Below, piece after piece: positions 16,576 to 32,421 of a stretch of 33,393 bases of DNA. The DNA is taken from NCBI GenBank assembly GCA_017440565.1, contig JAFSHA010000077.1, positions 1 to 33,393 on the forward strand. Reading direction: 5' to 3'. Origin of the DNA: Eggerthellaceae bacterium. Its GTDB lineage: Bacteria > Actinomycetota > Coriobacteriia > Coriobacteriales > Eggerthellaceae. The position numbers and the translations under genes were made by a program. Within the stretch, counting starts at the first letter, position 1. Each line of letters opens with the position of its first letter. The notes below the pieces were generated by a model. That model saw only the letters and a program-made list of their open reading frames with translations, ran no database searches and had not been told where the DNA came from.

Positions 16576-16607
16576 AAAGCGGCTGCCGGATTTCCAGCAG
16601 CCGCTTT
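16576..16607. terminator. Bidirectional terminator for the nuclease gene and gyrA
   Basis: An 11-bp perfect stem, AAAGCGGCTGC with GCAGCCGCTTT, and a 10-base loop. A and T ends give short T-runs on both strands. It sits between convergent genes. Confidence 0.85.
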
Positions 16608-16630
16608 CTTCATAGCTATCTCAAGCTTGG

Positions 16631-19180
16631 TTATTCCAGATCATCCAGATCGTCTTCGCCCAGGCTGCCGTTCTCGGATTCCGGCTCCAGAAGCGCCATC
16701 TGGTCGTCGTCGATATCAACGCCCGGCTTGGCCTTGCGGCGCTTGCCGGTGCTCGACACCGCAACAGCCGTCACGCGGTCGGCATCAGCCACGCGCATGA
16801 CCATAACGCCCTGCGTCGAACGACCCAGCTCCGAGATTCCGCTCACCGGGGTGCGCACAACCACACCCTCTTCCGAGATAATCATGATCTCGTCATCGGC
16901 GCCCACGATCTTCATCACCGAAAGCAGACCCTTCTTCTGAGTCATGGTGATGGTGTAGACGCCCTGACCGCCGCGGTGATGCTCGGGATACTCGCTTACC
17001 GGGGTGCGCTTACCGAAGCCCTTCTCGGTGATGACGAACAGGTCGGTGCCCGGGTAGGCAATCTCCATGCCCAGCACATGAGCGTCGGCCGGCACGTTCA
17101 TGCCGCGCACGCCCATGGTGTCGCGACCCATGGGACGCACCTCGTCCTCATCCCACATGATGGCCTTGCCGGCGCTCGACACCATCATGACCTTCTCGCC
17201 CTTAGCCACGCGGCGCACGGCAATGAGTTCGTCGCCGTCCTTCAGGTTGATGGCAATCAGACCGTCGCGGCGCGTGCGGTCGTACAGATCCATGGAGGTC
17301 TTCTTCACCATGCCCTGCTTGGTGGCGAACATGAGGAACTCGTCCTCGGGGAACTCCTTGGTGGCAATGACAGCCGAGATGGTTTCGCCCTTGGCAAGCG
17401 GCAGCAGGTTCACGATGGCCGTGCCGCGCGCATGACGCGACGCCTCGGGAATCTCGTGCACCTTGGTGCGGTACACCTTGCCCGCCGTCGAGAAGAACAG
17501 CATGTAGGAATGCGTGGACGCCACGAACAGGTGCTCGACGAAGTCGCTGTCCTTGAGGTTGACGCCCTGCATGCCCTTGCCGCCGCGCTTCTGTTGACGG
17601 TAGGTGGTGACGGGCAGGCGCTTGATGTAGCCGGCCTTCGTCATGGTGACCACCATGTTCTCGTCGGCAATGAGGTCTTCCACCTCGATGTCCTTCGCCT
17701 CGTGCGTGATGCGGGTCTTGCGCACGGTGCCGAAGCGCTTCTTGATCTCAAGCAGCTCTTCCTTGATGATCTCACGCACCAGGCTCTCGTCGGCCAGCAC
17801 GCGCTTGTAGTACGCAATGCGCTCACGCAGCTCGGCCAGCTCTTCCTCGATCTTGGTGCGCTCGAGGCCGGTCAGGCGGCGAAGGCGCATCTCGAGGATG
17901 GCATCGGTCTGCTTCTTGGAAAGGCCGAAGCGCTCGGAAAGGCGCTTGGCCGCCTCTTTGTCGGTTTCCGACGAACGGATGATGTGAATGACCTCGTCGA
18001 TGTTATCGAGCGCGATGATATAGCCCTCGAGAATATGCGCGCGCTCCTCCGCCTTGGCAAGCTCGTAGCGCGTGCGGCGTACGATGACTTCCTTCTGGTG
18101 CTCGATGTAGTGGAACAGGATTTCCTTGAGCGAAAGAACGCGCGGGACGCCGTTTACCAGTGCGAGCATGTTCACGCCGAAGCCCACCTGCAGCTGCGTG
18201 TGCTTGAACAGCTTGTTCAGCACCACCTGCGGGATAGCGTTGGCCTTGAGATCGATCACGATATCGATGCCGGTACGGTCAGCGGCATCGTGAATGTTGC
18301 TGATCTCGGGCAGCTTCTTGTCGCGCACCAGTTCGCCCAGCTTCTCAAGCAGGCGCTTGCGGTTCACTTGATAGGGAATTTCCTTCACCACGATGGAGGC
18401 GCGGCCGTTCTTCTTCTCTTCGACGGCGCACTTCGCACGCACCGTGAGGTTGCCGTGGCCGGTCTCGTATGCATCAATGATGCCCTTCTTGCCCATAATC
18501 ATGCCGCCAGTGGGGAAATCCGGTCCGGGCAGCACCTTCATGAGCTCCTCGGTGGTTACCTCGGGGTTATCGAGCATAAGGCAGGTGGCGTCGATGGTTT
18601 CACCCAGATTATGCGGCGGGATGTTGGTGGCCATGCCAACCGCGATGCCCGCCGAGCCGTTGACCAAAAGGTTGGGGAAACGAGCGGGCAGAACCTTAGG
18701 CTCCTGCAAGCTCTCGTCATAGTTGGGCTGGAAATCAACCGTTTCCTTGTCAAGGTCGCGCAGAAGCTCCATGGCCGGCTTGTCGAGGCGCGCCTCGGTG
18801 TAGCGCATGGCCGCCGCGCTATCGCCGTCGATGGAACCGAAGTTGCCGTGGCCGTCAATGAGCGGCACGCGCATGGAGAACGGCTGAGCAAGACGCACCA
18901 TGGTGTCGTACACGGCCGCGTCGCCATGCGGATGGTACTTGCCGATAACGTCGCCAACCGTACGCGCCGACTTCATATGGGGCTTGTTAGGCGTATAGCC
19001 GCTTTCGTTCATGGCGTACAGAATGCGGCGGTGCACCGGCTTCAAGCCGTCGCGCACGTCCGGCAGGGCGCGTGCGACGATGACGCTCATCGAGTACTCG
19101 AGGAACGACTGCTGCATCTCCTTGCCAAGCTCGGCGGTTTTGATGGTGGACTCATCCACCTTGAACAGTTCTTCAGACAT
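16631..19180 (-). CDS. gyrA: DNA gyrase subunit A
   Basis: An 849-residue subunit of gyrase that cleaves and rejoins DNA during negative supercoiling. Visible are the N-terminal breakage-reunion domain with [20 protein letters not shown], the active-site Tyr127 in [10 protein letters not shown], the GyrA-box [10 protein letters not shown] near 540, beta-pinwheel repeats, and an acidic tail ([12 protein letters not shown]). The quinolone-determining loop reads [10 protein letters not shown], with Ala88 where E. coli has Ser83, as in mycobacteria. Start ATG 19180 has AAAGGAGG overlapping the gyrB stop region; the 12-base gap shows co-transcription with gyrB. Confidence 0.98.
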
Positions 19181-19192
19181 GCTTCCCCTCCT

Positions 19193-21323
<2,131 letters not shown>

Positions 21324-22481
21324 TTAACGGCTTTCGTGAAGCAGGCGAGCCGGTGAACCCATTGTTTCCCCGCAAAGCTCCACTATATCGGCACGTGCAA
21401 GCATGGCAGCATCGAAATACGCGAGGTTCGCGGTGGTCACAAAAGTCTGCACCTCTTCCGATACATAGTCCACAAGCGCTTCCCTACGCGCGCCATCAAG
21501 CTCGCTCATCACGTCATCGAGAAGCAAAACCGGCTTCTGACCAAGCACTTCTTCAATAACCGCCGCCTCGGCCAACTTACATGATAAAACGATGGAGCGC
21601 TGCTGCCCCTGGCTTGCGAAGTGCGTGGCATCCATGCCGTCGACGGCGAAGTGAATCGTGTCAAGATGGGGCCCGACCAAGCAGCGGCGACGCGCCCTTT
21701 CCTCCGCACGTCGCTCTTCAAGGGCGCGTTCTATGGCCACGCGCGCCTCATCGCGGGTAAATTCGTGCGTTTCGGGATGATCGGGATCGAAGTTCGCCCA
21801 AGACGGAACGTAATGGACGGCAAGAGCCTCCCTACCGCCGGCGATGCTTCCGTAATTACTCTCGAAGTGTGGGCGAAGGCGGGCAAACAGCGCGCTGCGA
21901 TAGCAACTCAGTTGGGCGCCGCATGTGATGACCATCTCATCGATGCTCGCTATGAGAAGCGGTGAAGCCTCCTCCTTCAGTAAAGCGTTCTTATGGCGCA
22001 GCACTTTCTCGTAATCGCGCCTGATGGTGTGATAATTTGCGTTTATCTGCGAGCCCAGCGCATCAAGCGCCGCGCGACGGGTGCTCATGGATCCTTTTAC
22101 CAGCTCGAGGTCGTCGGGCGTGAACGTCACCGAGGGAACGAGGCCGCGTAGATCGGCAGGGCGCTTGGGCTTGCCGTTGAGCTCGTATTTCTTCGAATGC
22201 GCGGAAAGGGTCACTTTGAAGTCGAGCGATCGGTTTTCGTCCCCAGCACGCGCCTCAAGGCAAGACGCCGCCGCACCCTTCCGAATCATCTGGTCGATGG
22301 TGGCATGGCGAAACGAGGTATGAGCCGTGATCATCTGAACACCCTCGACGATGTTGCTCTTCCCCACCGCGTTGGGTCCCACGAACACGGTAAGCGCGCC
22401 CAAGCCGCCAAGCTCGAGGCGTTCGTAGCTTCTGAAATCTTTGAATTTTACTCGCTCGATGCGCAACGCCACGGCCTGCAC
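21324..22481 (-). CDS. recF: DNA replication and repair protein RecF
   Basis: A 385-residue SMC-like ATPase that helps load RecA at gaps. Walker A is GPNAVGKSN (Lys41); the family signature is SQGQQRSIVLSCKLAE and Walker B is PVLLLDDVMSELD, each in the expected order. The first residues RIERVKFKDFRSYERLEL are typical RecF. The start is uncertain: GTG 22481 and GTG 22472 are candidates and neither has a strong ribosome-binding site. Translation is probably coupled to dnaN, whose stop is 21 bases upstream in the same frame. Confidence 0.95.
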   Translation of the reverse strand: MQAVALRIERVKFKDFRSYERLELGGLGALTVFVGPNAVGKSNIVEGVQMITAHTSFRHATIDQMIRKGAAASCLEARAGDENRSLDFKVTLSAHSKKYELNGKPKRPADLRGLVPSVTFTPDDLELVKGSMSTRRAALDALGSQINANYHTIRRDYEKVLRHKNALLKEEASPLLIASIDEMVITCGAQLSCYRSALFARLRPHFESNYGSIAGGREALAVHYVPSWANFDPDHPETHEFTRDEARVAIERALEERRAEERARRRCLVGPHLDTIHFAVDGMDATHFASQGQQRSIVLSCKLAEAAVIEEVLGQKPVLLLDDVMSELDGARREALVDYVSEEVQTFVTTANLAYFDAAMLARADIVELCGETMGSPARLLHESR

Positions 22482-22502
22482 CGCCCTGCTCGAACCGAGG
22501 GT

Positions 22503-23614
22503 TTAGGAGATGCGCACCGGCATGACCAGGTACAGGTACTCGTCATCGCGCCCGCCCTCGCGCACGGCGCGGAAGATGCCCGGCTTAAGCGACGACTGCA
22601 CCTCGAGGTAAACGCTGTCGCTACCGGCGGCGGCCAGGCCGTCGAGGACGTAAGCGTAGTTGAACGCTATCTCGACATCTTCGCCCTCAATGTCGCACGT
22701 GATGGTTTCCTGAGCCGATCCCACGTCGTGCGAAGCCGCCGAGATCTGCACGGTCTGAGACGCCACGTTGAGGTCAAGACGCACGGGAGAGGTAGACGAG
22801 CCCAGCAGCGAGGCGCGCTTGACGCCGGCAACCAGACGGTCGAGGTCGATGGTGGCGCGCGTCACGTAGCTGTCGGGAAGCAGCTGCTTGTAGTTGGGGA
22901 AGTTACCCTCGATGCGGCGGTTGATGAAGGTGGTGTCTTCGCACCTCACCACGATCTGGTTTTCAGCCAACGCAATGGAAACGGGCGCCTCCGTCTTCGG
23001 AAGCGACGCGATCTCGGAGAGGAAGGTGCCGGCGATGACGGCCGTGAACCCCTCGGCGGGCGTGTTGGGCAGAGGCGTTTCAGAGATGGCGAGACGGTAG
23101 GAGTCGGTGGCCACCATGCGAAGGAGGCCAGATTCGTACGTGATGAGCACACCGGTAAGGATAGCGCGGCTCTCGTCCTTGGAAACAACGCGCGAGACGC
23201 GCTTGACCATCGAGGAGAACTTAGCGAAGGGAATCTCGATTTGCTGATGAGTGCTCACTTCGGGGAATCCCGGGAAATCCTCATGGTTGAGCGCCTTGAT
23301 GGAGAAAGACGAGGCGTCGCAGGTTATGAAGGCCTGTTCGTCCTCGGCGCGCACGTGCACGGCGGCGTCGGGAAGGTTTTTCACGATCTCGGAGAACAAC
23401 TTTCCCGGAAGCACCGCCCTGCCGGCTTCCTCAACAAGAGCCGGCGCCGAGTACTGGATGGAAAGCTCGAGGTCGGTGGTGTGAAGCGTGATCTTGTCTC
23501 CGGCCGCTTCAACGAGAATGCCCGAGAGAACGGGAAGAGTCGACCTCGTGGAAACGCCCTTGAGCACGATGGATATGGCGTTTGCAGCTCGGTGCGGTTA
23601 ATGCTGAACTTCAA
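22503..23614 (-). CDS. dnaN: DNA polymerase III sliding clamp (beta), with an apparent frameshift near the start
   Basis: The clamp of the replicative polymerase. The main frame (22503-23567) gives 354 residues starting mid-strand at LKGVSTRSTLPVLSGILVEA, through TDSYRLAISE, to the C-terminal YLYLVMPVRIS. A normal clamp begins about 16 residues earlier. Just upstream, in another frame, TTG 23614 with AAAGGGA before it encodes MKFSINRTELQ, a classic DnaN N-terminus. The two join if one A is added to the AAA at 23581-23583, giving 370 residues. So the gene either carries a real one-base deletion or the sequence has a homopolymer error. It is the first gene of a dnaN-recF unit, divergent from dnaA. 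Confidence 0.93.
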
Positions 23615-23658
23615 CTTCTTCCCTTTCGCCTATGGCCTTCCGTTTATTCACGCAAGCC

Positions 23659-23664
23659 ATTATA
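23659..23664 (-). promoter_or_regulatory. dnaN: -10 element of dnaN
   Basis: TATAAT on the minus strand, 44 bases before the TTG start at 23614. No good -35 hexamer seen. Confidence 0.45.
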
Positions 23665-23751
23665 ACGCGTGCATTGGGGACTTATTCGGCATTGGAGAAG
23701 CAGTTTTCCCATACGGCGAGAGATGTTTTCCCCACTATTCTTCATTGATGT

Positions 23752-23769
23752 TGTGGAAAATGTGGAAAA
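23752..23769 (-). promoter_or_regulatory. Two abutting DnaA boxes
   Basis: Two copies of TTTTCCACA end to end on the minus strand, matching the TTWTNCACA consensus. Confidence 0.65.
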
Positions 23770-24069
23770 CTCGCCCATTATCCGCACAGAAACACCCCCA
23801 ACCTGCATAAACGTGATTTCAGAACGTGCATTACCTTTATCCACTTTAGTATAGTAAAGTACGGTTTTTGACTGATACTACTCCTAAAAAACCGCTCTGA
23901 ACTGCGTTTTTATTATTTTCGACCGTAAAGCGAACAAAAGGGCGCTTTTTATGATTGTTGAATCGCGAAACTTGTCTCGTGATTCAAAAGCCAGCGAAAT
24001 TCATCTGGGAAAACTCAATTTGGGTGAAAGTCAAGGTTTTTTCTCAATACTTTTTAACAGCTTTCAGAG

Positions 24070-24112
24070 TTATTCACAGAATTTCTCTTCTTTGTATTCA
24101 ATGTTTTCCACA
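24070..24112 (+). promoter_or_regulatory. Two DnaA boxes 25 bases apart
   Basis: TTATTCACA (24070-24078) and TTTTCCACA (24104-24112), both on the plus strand, opposite in orientation to the pair at 23752. Confidence 0.6.
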
Positions 24113-24306
24113 TTTTATGAATAGAAAGTTGATAACTTTGAAAACACCTGATAAATAGCCCTTTCACTTTCATTTAGTCTTGAATTTGTATTTTTCCATC
24201 TCATAAAAGCGCAGGTGGGTAGATTTTGAAGGCCCAATAAAGCTACAATAGCTCTGAATTCTTTTGAATATCGCTGAATGAAACGAAACACAAACGGACC
24301 AGACCA

Positions 24307-25149
24307 TTGAATTATTCAAGCGAACAAAACACACCCGTCGGGATTTCCCCTGATGAACCCGCCACCACGTATGATTATTCATACGTGAATACCACAGCGC
24401 GCATCGCCCTGTACGACAACCTGCGCAGCGCACCGCGCATCATAGAGATTCAGCCCGCCGAAACATCCCAGTACATAGAAAACCTCGCCTCGCGCATTTA
24501 CGAGCAGGCGAAGATGGCGGGGGGAGAAGTTCCTTACACGGTCATCCGAGAGGTTTCCGAGAATTTCATCCACGCGCGCTTCAAGGAGATCATCGTATCC
24601 ATTCTCGACGGCGGCAACACCATTCGTTTCGCCGATCAGGGGCCTGGCATCCACAACAAGGAGAAAGCCCAGCTCCCCGGCTTCTCATCGGCTATCGAGC
24701 CGATGAAGCACTACATTCGCGGCGTCGGGTCGGGACTGCCCATTGTTAAGGAGTACCTCGGCTTCTCGAACGGACGCATCACCATAGAGGACAACCTCGG
24801 CGCAGGTTCGGTGGTCACTATCAGCCTGGTCGAAGACCCCGCGGAAAGCACCGCCTTCGACCGCCTTCCCGCCGTCAGCGCGCAGCCGGGAATGGCGCCG
24901 CGCAAGCAAAGGCCGGCAAAACCGCAGGTTGTCATACCGCCGCTCAGCCCGCGCGAGCGCGAGTTCCTCCCCATATTCCTTAGCGAAGGGGCCCTTGGCG
25001 TCACCGAGGTATCGAAGCTCACAAACGTTCCGCAATCAAGCACCTACGTTGCCTTGAAGAAGCTTGAGGAAGCCGGGTTGCTCGAGAAGACGTTCAACCA
25101 GAAGCGCACCCTCACCGAATTCGGCATCGAGGTTGCACGAGCGCTCTGA
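24307..25149 (+). CDS. GHKL-ATPase / winged-helix protein next to oriC
   Basis: A 280-residue soluble protein of unrecognised family. Residues about 50-175 form a HATPase domain of the histidine-kinase/anti-sigma type: N-box REVSENFIHA (Glu85, Asn86), G1 box FADQGPGI (Asp110), G2 box GVGSGLPIVKEYL. There is no phospho-acceptor His domain or sensor. A Pro/Lys linker (195-212) leads to a winged helix, residues 214-280, resembling MarR/IclR type (LSPREREFLPIFL, VTEVSKLTNVPQSSTYVALKKLEEAGLLEK). It is thus an ATP-binding DNA-binding regulator candidate. Start TTG 24307 has no strong ribosome-binding site but no better start exists. dnaA follows 121 bases later on the same strand, so it may control or be co-transcribed with dnaA. 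Confidence 0.8.
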   Translation: MNYSSEQNTPVGISPDEPATTYDYSYVNTTARIALYDNLRSAPRIIEIQPAETSQYIENLASRIYEQAKMAGGEVPYTVIREVSENFIHARFKEIIVSILDGGNTIRFADQGPGIHNKEKAQLPGFSSAIEPMKHYIRGVGSGLPIVKEYLGFSNGRITIEDNLGAGSVVTISLVEDPAESTAFDRLPAVSAQPGMAPRKQRPAKPQVVIPPLSPREREFLPIFLSEGALGVTEVSKLTNVPQSSTYVALKKLEEAGLLEKTFNQKRTLTEFGIEVARAL

Positions 25150-25192
25150 TCAGGATTATTTTCTTCGCGGTATTCAGGTAAAATCATTTGCA

Positions 25193-25246
25193 GCTTAAGC
25201 GGGCAAGCCGCAGTCGCTCGACATCGAGAATCCTGCGGTGCTTAAG
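25193..25246 (+). promoter_or_regulatory. Three-tier hairpin in the dnaA leader
   Basis: CTTAAGC/GCTTAAG, CCGCA/TGCGG and CTCGA/TCGAG stack into one long hairpin ending 24 bases before the dnaA start. A possible -10, TAAAAT (25179-25184), lies just upstream. Role unknown; it could be a leader control element or a weak terminator without T-run. Confidence 0.45.
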
Positions 25247-25270
25247 GCGGCGTGCTGCACGGTTGGAGGC

Positions 25271-26872
25271 ATGGTGAACAGCGAAAACTTGAACGAGAAC
25301 TGGGCGGAGGTTTGCGCCCTCATCAAGACGTACGAAGGAGTGGATCCTTCTCAGATCAACGCGTTCTTCTCACGCCTTCAGCCACAGGCCATGAGCGAGG
25401 GATTCCTCATGCTCACAGCCGACAACGACTTCATCAAAAACTGGATCGAGCGGCACTACCTCGACTTCGTCAAGCGGGCCCTGTTTGACATGTTCCAGGT
25501 TCCCTTCACCGTCATTGTCGAGGTCGACGACACCGCGACCAACGCAAACTCGACAAGCCCCGCCACGCAACCGGCCAAGCAAGAGTCTTTCGCACCCTCG
25601 GCCAGCCGTAACGGAGCCGTGAGTCCGGGCGAGGCGGAGCGATCCCGCGATGCTCGCGCCGAATGGCCCCCCGAGGCATCGCCGGCGCCAAATGGGCGCT
25701 TTGCACGCGCCTACGAACTCGACCGCGACGAAGAGGACCTGAAATCGCAGCTCGATCGACGCTTCCCCGCCAGCTCCTACGCGCCCGAACCCGAAGAGGA
25801 TCGCAACCAGTACGACCACCCCACCTCGACGCTCACGTTCGAGAACTTCGTCATCGGCGACTCCAACCGCATGGCATACTCCATGGCCGTCTCCGTTGCC
25901 GAAATGCCGGGTGGCACCCCGCTGAACCCCCTGTTCATCTACGGAAAGAGCGGTTTGGGCAAGACGCACCTCATGCGCGCCATCCAAAACTACATCCGCG
26001 AGACGCAACCCTACCTGCGCACGGTTTACGTCGACTCCGCCGAGCTGCTTTCCGAATACACCGCGGCAAGCGCGGCGCACGACAAGGAAAAAACCAGCTT
26101 CAAGAACTTCAAGACGCGCTATGAGCAGGCCGACGTCCTGCTCATCGACGATATCCAGTATTTCCAGGGCAAGAAGCAGACGCTCGAGATCGTCTTCCAG
26201 ATATTCAACAAACTCACCGACCAAGGCAAACAGATCGTGCTTTCCGCCGACCGCGCGCCTAAAAACATCGACATAGACGAGCGCTACCACTCCCGCTTCA
26301 ATCAGGGCGGCACCATCGACATCCAGCCTCCCGAAATCGAAACGAAGCTTGGCATCGTCAAGAGCTTTGTGAACGAGTACAAGCGCAACGAAGGGCTCGA
26401 GGGACTCAACATCCCCGAGCCTATTCAGATGTACATCGCGGAAAACTCAAGCTCCAACATTCGCGAGCTGAAGAGTGCCGTCACGAAGGTCATCTACCAG
26501 GCTATGTTCTTCAACCAGCCCGATATGTCCGTCGCCGACGTGCGCGTGCTGCTCGAAAACCACTTCTCAAGCGGCTCGGCCAAAAACCTTTCGGTCGAGG
26601 ACATCCAAAACGAGGTGTGTACCTTCTTCAAGGTGAGCCGCAGCGACATGATAGGCCCCAAGAGGGCGCGCAGCATTGTCTACCCGCGCCAGATTGCCAT
26701 CTATCTGTGCCGACAGCTACTCGACCTGCCTTTCAACGACATTGGCAAGAAGTTCAACCGAGACCACAGCACCGCTATGCACTCGGTGACCACCGTCGAG
26801 GAGATGATGAAGAAGAGCCGGGAAGTCCAGGAGGAAATCGAGGCGCTCAAGCAAATCATCCGGGAACTCTAG
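25271..26872 (+). CDS. dnaA: Chromosomal replication initiator DnaA
   Basis: A 533-residue initiator that binds DnaA boxes and opens oriC. Domain I is about 1-82; domain II is a long acidic/Pro-rich linker (about 83-182). The AAA+ domain has Walker A YGKSGLGKTHL (Lys231), Walker B VLLIDDIQYF (Asp293-294), sensor VLSADRAPK and box VII YHSRFNQGGTIDIQPPEIET. Domain IV ends in IGKKFNRDHSTAMHSV (491-506). In that signature the usual GGRDHTTV is one residue shorter (NRDHSTA). The Walker A has Lys-Ser where Gly-Val is common. GGAGG precedes; ATG 25271 is very close to it, so GTG 25274 may be the real start. It runs opposite to dnaN. Confidence 0.97.
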   Translation: MVNSENLNENWAEVCALIKTYEGVDPSQINAFFSRLQPQAMSEGFLMLTADNDFIKNWIERHYLDFVKRALFDMFQVPFTVIVEVDDTATNANSTSPATQPAKQESFAPSASRNGAVSPGEAERSRDARAEWPPEASPAPNGRFARAYELDRDEEDLKSQLDRRFPASSYAPEPEEDRNQYDHPTSTLTFENFVIGDSNRMAYSMAVSVAEMPGGTPLNPLFIYGKSGLGKTHLMRAIQNYIRETQPYLRTVYVDSAELLSEYTAASAAHDKEKTSFKNFKTRYEQADVLLIDDIQYFQGKKQTLEIVFQIFNKLTDQGKQIVLSADRAPKNIDIDERYHSRFNQGGTIDIQPPEIETKLGIVKSFVNEYKRNEGLEGLNIPEPIQMYIAENSSSNIRELKSAVTKVIYQAMFFNQPDMSVADVRVLLENHFSSGSAKNLSVEDIQNEVCTFFKVSRSDMIGPKRARSIVYPRQIAIYLCRQLLDLPFNDIGKKFNRDHSTAMHSVTTVEEMMKKSREVQEEIEALKQIIREL

Positions 26873-27310
26873 CCATACGCCTGCAATCTGCTCATTGGGG
26901 AAAACTTATTGATAGATGACTATTCGCTGACTCATAATTCGCGATTCGTCCTCATTGATAATTTTCTCAATAAAGCCAGTAGATAGCCGATACAAACAAT
27001 GAGTCATTCGCAAACCTTGTTTTATCTTGTTTGATCAGGTGTTTTGCAAGTAATCCACTTTTCAACCGCCTTTATTAGGGTTACTACTCTTTACTATTGT
27101 TTTGTTTTTGAGTTTGATCGTTCAATTTCGATCTCAGATCCTGTGCGCTCATTCCGATACCGCCCATTTCCCAACTCCGGGAATATTCCGCGAGGTCTGT
27201 CAGGCGGCGAATCTATATTTCCCCTGATGAAACTAAAAATTTTCGTTGACACGCCTTTATTCTGATATATACTTTGGAAGTTACTCTTTGAGTATGAAAG
27301 GGAAAATACA
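26873..27310. other. AT-rich region between dnaA and rpmH
   Basis: This 438-base AT-rich spacer has no supported gene and no good DnaA box. It has recurring phrases TGACTATTCGC (about 26917), TGACTCATAATTCGC (26928) and TGAGTCATTCGC (27000), where TGACTCAT and ATGAGTCA form inverted copies. It contains the rpmH promoter. It might be a second, unwinding part of the origin, but nothing proves that. Confidence 0.45.
27246..27273 (+). promoter_or_regulatory. rpmH: rpmH promoter
   Basis: TTGACA (27246-27251), 16 bases, TATACT (27268-27273): the best sigma-70-type promoter in the window. Predicted start about 27280, 30 bases before rpmH. It likely drives rpmH-rnpA-yidD-yidC. Confidence 0.85.
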
Positions 27311-27445
27311 ATGAAGCGTACTTATCAACCGAACAACCGCAAGCGCGCAAAGTGCCATGGTTTCCGCGCTCGTATGGCCACCAAGGGCGGCCGCGCCGTG
27401 CTCGCTGCTCGTCGTGCAAAGGGTCGCAAGCGTCTTTGCGTCTAG
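27311..27445 (+). CDS. rpmH: 50S ribosomal protein L34
   Basis: A 44-residue basic protein, [18 protein letters not shown] through [18 protein letters not shown], which is L34 over its whole length. AAAGGGA precedes the ATG at 27311. It is the first gene of the rpmH-rnpA-yidD-yidC cluster that flanks bacterial origins. Residue 15 is Cys where other L34 proteins often have other residues, a minor variation. Confidence 0.98.
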
Positions 27446-27460
27446 CATTGGAGCATCTTG

Positions 27461-27820
27461 TTGGATACCGTAAAATCCAGCTCGGAAATATCCAACCTCT
27501 TCAACTCGGGAAGGCGTCTTAAGACGCCTTATCTTACGTTTATCGTAGCTAAGCGGGTTCATGAGAATGAGGTAGGGGTCACGCAACACGACCTTCGCGG
27601 TCGTGTTGCTTTTATTGCGGGCAAGAAGCTGGGCAACGCTGTGTGGAGGAATGCGGCCAAGCGTCGAATGCGCGCTGTCTGTCGCGATCTTGGCGGGCCT
27701 TGGCCGGGGTACGACGTGATATTTCTCGCGAAATCGTCCATCACAGCCGCCGATTATAGTAAAGTGCTTAAGGCGTGTGAGAAGACGGTGAATGCATCGC
27801 TTTTCAACGGAGATCTGTGA
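27461..27820 (+). CDS. rnpA: Ribonuclease P protein component
   Basis: About 119 residues; it binds RNase P RNA and supports maturation of tRNA 5' ends. The RNA-binding signature is KKLGNAVWRNAAKRRMRAVC, preceded by RVAFIAG and followed by GYDVIFLAKSSI. The N-terminus (SSEISNLFNSGRRL) lacks the frequent LPKEHRLRK lead. Starts are TTG: 27461 (7 bases after GGAG) or 27458. It begins 15 bases after rpmH. Confidence 0.93.
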   Translation: MDTVKSSSEISNLFNSGRRLKTPYLTFIVAKRVHENEVGVTQHDLRGRVAFIAGKKLGNAVWRNAAKRRMRAVCRDLGGPWPGYDVIFLAKSSITAADYSKVLKACEKTVNASLFNGDL

Positions 27821-27827
27821 GGTGAGC

Positions 27828-28064
27828 ATGGTCGTGGATGTGATAAAGCGCATCCCCACCACGATTGCCGTGTGGTTGATCATGTTCTACCGCATGGCAA
27901 TTTCCCCGCATTTTCCGGGGTGTTGCCGGTTCGTTCCCACATGCTCCGAGTATGGGCTTATCGCTTTCAAGCGATACGGCTTCCGCAAGGGCTTCGTTCT
28001 GACGGCGAAGCGCTTGCTTAAGTGTCGTCCGGGAGGGCCTCACGGCTACGATCCTGTTCCTTAG
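27828..28064 (+). CDS. yidD: Membrane protein insertion efficiency factor YidD
   Basis: A 78-residue YidD family protein that assists YidC-dependent insertion at the inner face of the membrane. An amphipathic/hydrophobic N-terminus (IAVWLIMFYRMAISPHFPG) precedes the family core CRFVPTCSEYGLIAFKRYG and KRLLKCRPGGPHGYDPVP. ATG 27828 has GAGG five bases upstream and starts 7 bases after the rnpA stop, so the two are translationally close. Confidence 0.95.
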   Translation: MVVDVIKRIPTTIAVWLIMFYRMAISPHFPGCCRFVPTCSEYGLIAFKRYGFRKGFVLTAKRLLKCRPGGPHGYDPVP

Positions 28065-28103
28065 GCGGGGTCGGCCCTCTTTGGCATATAGAAGGGAAGG
28101 AAT

Positions 28104-28880
28104 ATGTGGGAAGTTATTAAGGACTTCATCTTCAGCTGCATCGAGTTCTTCTACAACTTCTGCGGTGACTGGGGTCTTGCCATCATCATCGTGACGGTGA
28201 TCTTCCGTCTCATCATGGCGCCCATCATGCACAAGCAGGCGAAGTCGAATTTTCAGATGCAGAAAATTCAGCCGAAGATCCAAGAGATTCAGAAGAAGTA
28301 CGCGGATGACCAGGTCACCCAGTCTCAGGAGATGCAGAAGGTTTACGCCGATGCGAAATATAATCCCCTGACCGGCTGCATCCCCATGCTGCTTCAGATG
28401 CCCATCTTCATCGCGCTGTTCCAGACGCTGCGCGAGATGGGTGATCGCGTTGGTGACGGCAACGTTAGTTTCTATGGGATCGTCCCCGACCTGATTATGA
28501 CCCCGTCTGGTGCTTTGACCGTGGGTTTTGGAACGTTTGTTCCCTATTTGATCCTGATGCTTCTGTTCGCCGGCGCCACTTTTGCGCCGATGATTATCAC
28601 ACAGAGGCACAATCAGAACCAGGACCAGAAGCGCCAGATGTACATGATGGCCGTTGTTATGAGCCTCATGATGCTTTGGATCTCTTGGAGCTCCCCCGCT
28701 GGCGTTCTTCTTTTTTGGGGCGTTTCCTCTCTGCTCGGCATCGCCCAGAATCAGTTCAGCACCTGGTACTACAAGAAGCAGGACAAGAAGATCGAAGCCG
28801 AGAAGGCAACCGAGGTCAAGCCGGTTAAAGTCGAGGTTACTCGTAAGGAGAAGAAGCCTCGCCCGAAGAAGAAGCGCTAG
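28104..28880 (+). CDS. yidC: Membrane protein insertase YidC/Oxa1
   Basis: A 258-residue insertase with the five-helix Gram-positive plan. It has the conserved Arg in TVIFRLIMAPIMHKQ (about Arg35), the coiled cytoplasmic loop KIQPKIQEIQKKYADDQ, CIPMLLQMPIFIALFQTLRE, and later helices ending in a SSPAGVLLFWGVSSLLGIAQ segment. The Lys/Arg-rich tail probably contacts ribosomes. It has no lipoprotein signal, and starts at ATG 28104 after GAAGGGAAGG. It sits 39 bases after yidD; a parS palindrome follows its stop. Confidence 0.96.
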   Translation: MWEVIKDFIFSCIEFFYNFCGDWGLAIIIVTVIFRLIMAPIMHKQAKSNFQMQKIQPKIQEIQKKYADDQVTQSQEMQKVYADAKYNPLTGCIPMLLQMPIFIALFQTLREMGDRVGDGNVSFYGIVPDLIMTPSGALTVGFGTFVPYLILMLLFAGATFAPMIITQRHNQNQDQKRQMYMMAVVMSLMMLWISWSSPAGVLLFWGVSSLLGIAQNQFSTWYYKKQDKKIEAEKATEVKPVKVEVTRKEKKPRPKKKR

Positions 28881-28894
28881 ATCGTTTGATGGAG

Positions 28895-28918
28895 GGAGTG
28901 TTTCACGTGAAACACTCC
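28895..28918. terminator. parS site 8 in a palindrome after yidC
   Basis: A perfect parS (28899-28914) is extended by GGAG/CTCC to 24 bp, and further by wobble pairs. It begins 14 bases after the yidC stop and is followed by TCTTGTTTGTTT, so it may act as a weak terminator between yidC and jag. Confidence 0.65.
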
Positions 28919-30870: not shown

Positions 30871-31272
30871 ATGGGAACGTCGAAGCGAAGCGAAATGGCT
30901 CGAAGGGCCGAGTATTTGAGAAGGAATATGACCCCTTGTGAACGAAAGCTCTGGTTTTGCTTTCTTAAAGATCATGAGATAGGGTTTAGGCCTCAGAAGG
31001 TGATCGGAGATTATATTGTCGATTTCTATTCCAGGAAGATTCGCCTGAGCATAGAGATTGATGGTGAGAGTCACTTCAACGAGAGATCTATGGAATATGA
31101 CCGGATAAGAACCCTGAGATTGGAAATGAGGGAGATTTTCGAAATCAGATTCACGAATGATGAGGTCAAGGACAACTTTGAGGGCGTTTGCGAGAGGATA
31201 CAGGAAGTGATACAGGCTCGGAGGCATGATGTGAGGTCGCTTGATTTCAGCAAGTTGAAGGAAAGGGGATGA
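30871..31272 (+). CDS. DUF559 (Vsr-like) endonuclease-domain protein
   Basis: A 133-residue protein of the DUF559 family, a PD-(D/E)xK nuclease fold related to very-short-patch-repair endonucleases. Conserved elements are RRNMTPCERKLWFCFL, FRPQKVIGDYIVDFYSRK, LSIEIDGESHF (active-site-like Asp, Glu-x-Asp), DRIRTLRLEM and FEIRFTNDEV. The target is unknown, and no methylase or repair partner is adjacent. ATG 30871 has the excellent AAGGAGG upstream. Its stop codon overlaps a parS palindrome. It is an unusual insert between rsmG and parA, which are normally adjacent. Confidence 0.85.
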   Translation: MGTSKRSEMARRAEYLRRNMTPCERKLWFCFLKDHEIGFRPQKVIGDYIVDFYSRKIRLSIEIDGESHFNERSMEYDRIRTLRLEMREIFEIRFTNDEVKDNFEGVCERIQEVIQARRHDVRSLDFSKLKERG

Positions 31273-31437: not shown

Positions 31438-32421
31438 GTGGGCTTGTTTGATGGATTGCGGAAAGAGAAGCATGCGCCAGACGGTAATCTTCGAAACGAT
31501 GAAGCTAGTGGATCCAATGTGGCTGACGTTAACATGTCTTTAGCCGCTGACACGGCTGTTGTTAGTCAACGTGAGGTGACTCCGGTTAGGGAAGATGTTG
31601 TTGAATCGGCTCCCATAAAATCCTATAAGGAGAAAAAACCGGTGAACCACGTGATTGGGCAAACGAAGATACTTGCCATCATCAATCAAAAAGGCGGAGT
31701 TGGGAAATCTACGACCGCAATCAACCTGTCTGCGGCTCTTGGAGCGATGAATAAACAGGTTCTTCTGGTTGATTTGGATCCTCAAGGAAACTCATCAAGC
31801 GGCTTAGGTATTGAGAAGGGCGCTGTTGATCACTGCATCTATGATGTCCTTTTAAACGATGTTCCTATCGAGCAGGTTATCATTCCCGATGTTTGTCCTG
31901 GTCTCGATGTTGCGCCGGCTACGATCAATTTGGCCGGTGCTGAGGTTGAGCTCGTTTCGGAGATGGCACGTGAGAACAGGTTAAAGGATGCTGTTGGAAG
32001 TATGCGCGGGCGTTATGATTTCATCCTGATCGACTGCCCCCCATCCCTCGGACTTCTTACTGTTAATGCCTTGGTTGCTGCCGATAAGCTCCTTATTCCC
32101 ATACAATGCGAGTTCTACGCACTCGAGGGTGTGACAAAACTCCTTGATTCGATGAAAAGAGTCAAAACGCGCCTTAATCCGACTTTGGATATATACGGCG
32201 TTCTTCTCACTATGTACGATAACCGAACGCTGCTTTCCAAACAGGTGGTTGACGAGGTTCGTGGATATTTCGGCCGCGTAGTGTTCAACACCATGATTCC
32301 TCGCACGGTCAAGTTATCTGAGGCACCTAGTTTTGGACAGCCCATTACGGAATATGATCCGAAAGGTAAGGGCTCTATTGCTTATATAGAGCTTGCAAAG
32401 GAAGTGATTGCTCGTGGCTAA
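31438..32421 (+). CDS. parA: Chromosome-partitioning ATPase ParA (Soj)
   Basis: A 327-residue deviant-Walker ATPase that moves ParB-parS complexes over the nucleoid. The ATPase core begins at about 77: KILAIINQKGGVGKSTTAIN (signature Lys and catalytic Lys), VLLVDLDPQGNSSSGLG, YDFILIDCPPSLGLLTVNAL and IPRTVKLSEAPSFGQPI. The first 75 residues are a hydrophilic extension of low complexity, longer than in Soj of Bacillus. Start GTG 31438 with AGAAAGGGGG. parB overlaps its end by 8 bases. Confidence 0.96.
   Translation: MGLFDGLRKEKHAPDGNLRNDEASGSNVADVNMSLAADTAVVSQREVTPVREDVVESAPIKSYKEKKPVNHVIGQTKILAIINQKGGVGKSTTAINLSAALGAMNKQVLLVDLDPQGNSSSGLGIEKGAVDHCIYDVLLNDVPIEQVIIPDVCPGLDVAPATINLAGAEVELVSEMARENRLKDAVGSMRGRYDFILIDCPPSLGLLTVNALVAADKLLIPIQCEFYALEGVTKLLDSMKRVKTRLNPTLDIYGVLLTMYDNRTLLSKQVVDEVRGYFGRVVFNTMIPRTVKLSEAPSFGQPITEYDPKGKGSIAYIELAKEVIARG

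Follow-up and report, generated by a model that had tools for sequence, protein, structure and literature searches.

How replication initiation is controlled in non-model actinobacteria is almost unknown. In the window analyzed here (the whole stretch of 33,393 nucleotides from an Eggerthellaceae bacterium), a single-copy gene lies close to dnaA at a cluster of DnaA-box-like sites, and its predicted product joins an ATP-binding domain to a DNA-binding domain. The question raised by this locus is whether such a protein acts on the origin, on the expression of dnaA, or on neither. The initial annotation proposed a regulator of initiation or of dnaA expression. The reading that we prefer, in which we place about even confidence, is that the gene encodes an ATP-responsive, self-regulating transcription factor heading the dnaA operon. 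The features discussed are collected in Table 1.

Table 1. Positions in the window of the gene, its domains and the surrounding origin features.
Feature	Position	Strand	Remarks
dnaN	22503..23567	-	divergent neighbor across the origin region
AT-rich origin/promoter region	23568..24306	.	DnaA-box-like sites at 23726, 23752, 23761, 23778, 23837, 24070, 24104
TACAAT, probable -10 of the gene's promoter	24244..24249	+	hexamer and its place shared by most array-bearing Eggerthellaceae
Candidate operator TGAAT-N5-TGAAT-N5-TGAAT	24255..24279	+	three direct repeats, 10-bp spacing; sole copy in genome
GHKL-ATPase/winged-helix protein gene, 280 aa	24307..25149	+	TTG start, stop included; frame, Pfam, alignment, AlphaFold2
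Conserved N-terminal segment, residues 27-76	24385..24534	+	ARIAxYDDxxxAPRV, strand, helix 53-70; part of the family signature
GHKL ATPase domain, residues 77-174	24535..24828	+	Pfam; ATP-site residues invariant over the phylum
N box, E82-V-S-E85-N86	24550-24564	+	inside GHKL domain
G1 box, DQGPGI, residues 110-115	24634-24651	+	inside GHKL domain
G2 box, RGVGSGLP, residues 138-145	24718-24741	+	inside GHKL domain
C-terminal winged helix, residues 215-280	24949..25146	+	Pfam, AlphaFold2
Winged-helix elements			helices 215-227, 232-239, 243-255; wing strands 259-261, 267-269; helix 271-279
dnaA	25271..26872	+	ATG backed by alignment; frame open from GTG 25238
rpmH	27311..27445	+	3' of dnaA in the window genome; divergent from the gene in Gordonibacter

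The frame is a real gene, since 27 relatives align with it in the first alignment and their ATP-site residues are invariant. The TTG start is also backed by alignment, as many relatives begin at this position with TTG, ATG or GTG. In the Pfam search, HATPase_c matched residues 77-174 (E = 1.3e-8), and TrmB (28.2 bits), HTH_IclR (25.5 bits) and HTH_5 matched residues 215-262, all of them above the cut-offs. The AlphaFold2 model has two well-predicted domains (pLDDT blocks mostly >90), the GHKL domain and the winged helix, with a disordered linker between them (about residues 181-200). This linker is much longer in several genera (G001, G053, G076 and others), whose frames code for 330-430 aa. 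The N, G1 and G2 boxes are intact, and E82, N86, D110, G112, G114, G139, G141 and G143 are invariant in 26 relatives across the phylum. A degraded histidine kinase is ruled out by this invariance. No HisKA or DHp match was found by Pfam in the window protein or among the families listed for 27 members, and the segment preceding the N box is conserved but too short for a DHp domain. Structure prediction and profile search thus upheld the initial proposal of a GHKL domain without phospho-acceptor joined to a winged helix. Judged by its sequence, the protein appears to combine ATP binding and DNA binding in an arrangement of an undescribed type.

No described family fits the protein, and no report of the gene was found in our literature searches. 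The nearest whole-chain fold is DIP2311 of Corynebacterium diphtheriae (PDB 3lmm; TM by query 0.43-0.46), in which a GHKL-type domain is likewise followed by a winged helix. DIP2311 differs in being twice as long and has only about 13% identity to the window protein. We take DIP2311 to be of the COG2865 kind; AlbA_2 and HATPase_c_4, which are typical for that kind, had no match in the window protein or in the members examined. The conserved stretch ahead of the ATPase domain is only about 50 residues long, and AlbA_2 is absent from it. MarR, IclR and TrmB regulators have the winged helix-turn-helix in common with the window protein, but their own effector or dimer domain is absent from it, and the GHKL domain holds that place, N-terminal to the HTH.

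Profile searches place the ATPase domain among histidine kinases, MutL and SpoIIAB. Two-component histidine kinases gave the best sequence matches and share the HATPase_c domain with its N, G1 and G2 boxes. However, they possess DHp/HisKA and a sensor or membrane part, whereas the window protein is without these and has a C-terminal DNA-binding domain. The MutL profile matched with E = 4.5e-6. The N box of MutL is ELVEN (E-x-x-E-N), and its Glu is the catalytic base of the GHL ATPases (MutL, GyrB, Hsp90). The window protein has the catalytic-type Glu and Asn as in MutL (E82-x-x-E-N86); a Glu four residues before the Mg-binding Asn is a GHL feature, and both residues are invariant over the phylum. 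On the other hand, the repair and topoisomerase domains of GHL ATPases are not in the window protein, and no GHL transducer domain follows its ATPase domain, since Pfam gave no match and the predicted fold has no further segment ahead of the linker.

SpoIIAB was matched over the whole ATPase domain (1th8/1tid, E = 1.6e-4) and is, like RsbW, a single GHKL domain without DHp. The window protein might accordingly, though we consider this quite improbable, be a protein kinase that uses its GHKL domain to phosphorylate either a partner or its own winged helix, and phosphorylation would release it from DNA. A precedent exists in CapK, a GHKL kinase, which phosphorylates the STAS-winged-helix repressor CapS, freeing its promoter, in a pair that controls immune operons (PMC13373217). 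In CapK/CapS, and in the model proposed here for the window protein, a GHKL ATPase or kinase is coupled to a MarR/ArsR-like winged-helix repressor at an adjacent controlled operon. By analogy, the logic of a regulator at the operon head may parallel that of CapK/CapS, although neither chain is matched in full. CapK and CapS are two proteins, both with STAS, encoded in mobile immune loci, whereas the window protein is one chain encoded in the core chromosome beside dnaA. SpoIIAB and RsbW are without a winged helix and act on STAS proteins and sigma factors. Against a kinase of this type, Pfam found no STAS domain in the window protein or the listed members, and in six genomes STAS genes were found elsewhere but none adjacent to the gene, the nearest being about 11 kb away (G544). 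The sole STAS match in a Gordonibacter genome (G066) is in a 591-aa frame, probably a transporter. HATPase_c_2 matched 4 of 26 members weakly (best E = 0.0058), and the profile scores of histidine kinases and MutL beat that of SpoIIAB.

The gene is located at the origin. GC skew turns near 27 kb in the window, which identifies the locus as the origin region. The 739-bp gap between dnaN and the gene (39% GC) contains seven DnaA-box-like 9-mers with at most one mismatch, compared with 0.48 expected from shuffles. As the initial annotation had placed it, the gene lies between this cluster and dnaA: the boxes are 5' of the gene, dnaA is 3' on the same strand, and no boxes were found between the two. 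The order in the window is dnaN< [boxes] >gene >dnaA >rpmH, and that in Gordonibacter and others is rpmH< [boxes] >gene >dnaA >dnaN. The gene-dnaA pair, or its flanks, flips as a unit, and the gene and dnaA remain together. An assembly error behind the swapped flanks was ruled out, since the same order was found in a sister genome (L038) and in Raoultibacter (L043). The origin block (22503-27445 in the window; L038, L039, L042-L048) has been repeatedly rearranged in Eggerthellaceae, and dnaA or the gene alone has been turned in some lineages. No annotated RNA element was found upstream of the gene with Rfam.

Linkage to dnaA extends far beyond the window genome. The gene is present in 116 of 138 Eggerthellaceae genomes and has dnaA as its neighbor in all 116; dnaA follows directly in 105 and across the start of the record in five, and the two are divergent in three and convergent in three. 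These family numbers are counts of genomes and not of independent events. Nineteen of the 22 genomes without the gene are also without a dnaA match, which points to an origin assembly gap. The other three, all of one genus (G100, G106 and G107), have dnaA and miss the gene; a faint N-terminal remnant was seen in one of the rpmH-dnaA gaps of these gene-less genomes (L080, among loci L080-L082). The gene is truly lost in this small clade and is thus dispensable over evolutionary time. In the class Coriobacteriia, 266 of 298 genomes carry the gene. Of these, 79 from outside Eggerthellaceae were tested for dnaA, and in all 77 that could be resolved the gene immediately precedes dnaA on the same strand. 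In the phylum sample, it was found in 120 of 296 genomes and, in other actinobacterial families, directly 5' of dnaA on the same strand in 76 of 76 resolvable cases (five across the record start). A mobile-element origin was ruled out, because searches of 72,556 plasmid and 50,697 phage records gave no match.

The initial annotation had staked its proposal on relatives keeping the gene linked to dnaA, and they do so throughout the sampled class and in further families of the phylum. A large early-branching part of the actinobacteria has retained the pairing, which suggests that the gene probably ties the expression of dnaA to a cell state sensed through ATP. It is possible, and we propose it only tentatively, that the protein is a phylum-deep, undescribed ATP-gated winged-helix replication regulator that has accompanied dnaA since early in the history of the actinobacteria and ties initiation to cellular ATP via dnaA transcription or the origin.

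The spacing of the two genes bears on how they are expressed. In other Coriobacteriia and other families, the gene often overlaps dnaA or sits tens of bases away from it. For the majority of nine distant members, its stop lies about -4 to 100 bp from the dnaA start, which makes a single gene-dnaA transcript likely, and the gene is probably co-transcribed with dnaA as a rule. In the window, the gap is 121 bp, and dnaA could be transcribed from its own promoter inside the gene or in this gap. Within the gap, 25189-25250 contains inverted repeats (CCGCAG...CTGCGG) and a terminator-like minus-strand stem at 25212-25189; these repeats are possibly a dnaA leader structure. A few lineages have the gene and dnaA in different orientations, and control of dnaA by read-through cannot apply there.

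Few gene orders in bacteria are as stable as that of the origin block, and the gene might merely be a bystander in it, an ordinary regulator of other promoters, with the repeat array at its promoter belonging to another factor. We see only a slight chance of this, because linkage across many families together with near-overlapping frames exceeds what neighborhood inertia would give.

The repeat array is the candidate operator. Its first repeat begins 11 bp after the start of TACAAT in the window and in most array genomes, which would place the start of the array close to the transcription start. A simple promoter scan missed the TACAAT promoter, probably because it has no good -35. When the last 150 bp before the gene were analyzed on the plus strand of 32 dissimilar Eggerthellaceae loci, TGAA[AT] occurred 165 times, compared with 19 in base shuffles and 63 on the other strand. 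Pairs of TGAAW exactly 10 bp apart numbered 41, compared with 0.07 expected in base-shuffled sequence. A pattern search of genomes for the strict three-repeat pattern found it once in the whole window genome. It was located at the gene in 18 of the 21 genomes with any copy (36 searched). The strict form is missing in some of the Eggerthellaceae genomes that retain the gene among the 36. The bystander reading gains from the array not being universal among carriers of the gene. Against that reading, the window genome has just this one array, which is tied to the gene, with no regulon-wide spread.

The array follows the gene rather than dnaA when the two separate. In Curtanaerobium, in which the gene and dnaA are divergent, and in MAGs with dnaA reversed, the TGAAW repeats are weaker but stay with the gene. 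The separated dnaA promoters that could be read (L046-L048) have DnaA-box-like sites and no array, which disfavors the array as a site of DnaA autoregulation. The three gene-loss genomes have no copy of the array, and in other families the sequence 5' of the gene showed no 10-bp repeat. Since the array is limited to part of Eggerthellaceae, any operator must differ in other families. The association between array and gene is confounded by descent within Eggerthellaceae. Recognition-helix sequence seemed to be linked to array presence, but this too is confounded by descent and has exceptions (L044 and L028), and we make no claim for it.

An ATP site and a DNA-binding domain in one chain, the probable position at the head of an operon and the unique phased repeat led us to the reading of an ATP-responsive autoregulator. 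In this model, the winged helix would bind operator DNA at the operon transcription start, which in Eggerthellaceae would consist of the three TGAAW repeats spaced by 10 bp. The GHKL domain would bind, and perhaps hydrolyze, ATP, and the nucleotide would change dimerization by analogy with MutL, GyrB and SpoIIAB. The change in dimerization would then switch DNA binding. The protein would thereby control its own synthesis, probably by repression rather than activation. As dnaA is probably read from this transcript too in most lineages, its supply, and possibly initiation, would be adjusted to the ATP state of the cell or to an undefined partner.

It is also conceivable, though we consider it unlikely, that the protein regulates the origin directly, binding the origin region or DnaA and timing initiation by an ATP-state switch, with autoregulation being secondary. 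A DnaA-box cluster borders the gene in most lineages (mean 1.2-2.1 strict boxes per about 600 bp upstream, compared with <0.1 in shuffles). In six Eggerthellaceae genomes with broken operon order, the gene is still within about 2 kb of dnaA, but these represent only two or three events and proximity is weak evidence. However, the sole candidate site is at the gene's own promoter and not among the DnaA boxes, and the gene has been lost in a living clade. Of the two roles first suggested for the protein, control of dnaA expression fits better, since this site lies at the promoter start and stays with the gene when dnaA is separated. A route of the SirA, Soj or YabA type has no specific support. 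These Bacillus subtilis proteins act on the DnaA protein, share with the window protein the proposed role in initiation control alone, and have no sequence or domain relation to it that we could find.

If the preferred reading of an ATP-responsive autoregulator is true, it describes an ATP-reading control of dnaA that Streptomyces and Mycobacterium may lack. It is directly testable, as the gene is a single copy before dnaA in all sampled deep-branching carriers and has a 25-bp candidate operator in gut species. The clade of G100, G106 and G107 provides a natural knockout for comparison.

Several other observations were made around the origin block. No dciA gene lies between recF and gyrB (21142-21324), and DciA had no Pfam match in the window genome (G000), in several other Coriobacteriia (e.g. 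G066, G053 and G063) or in four members of the f36 family. The gene as a substitute for DciA, the helicase operator, was ruled out because many genomes with the gene also have DciA. A DUF559 endonuclease-like gene (30871-31272, E = 1.5e-23) lies between rsmG and parA, the latter being a separate gene for a ParA/Soj homologue at 31438-32421. Sixteen parS-like sites (TGTTTCACGTGAAACA), 15 of them perfect, were found at 1580-32626 of the window, compared with 0.04 expected; all are outside 16576-28898 and thus flank the origin block on both sides.
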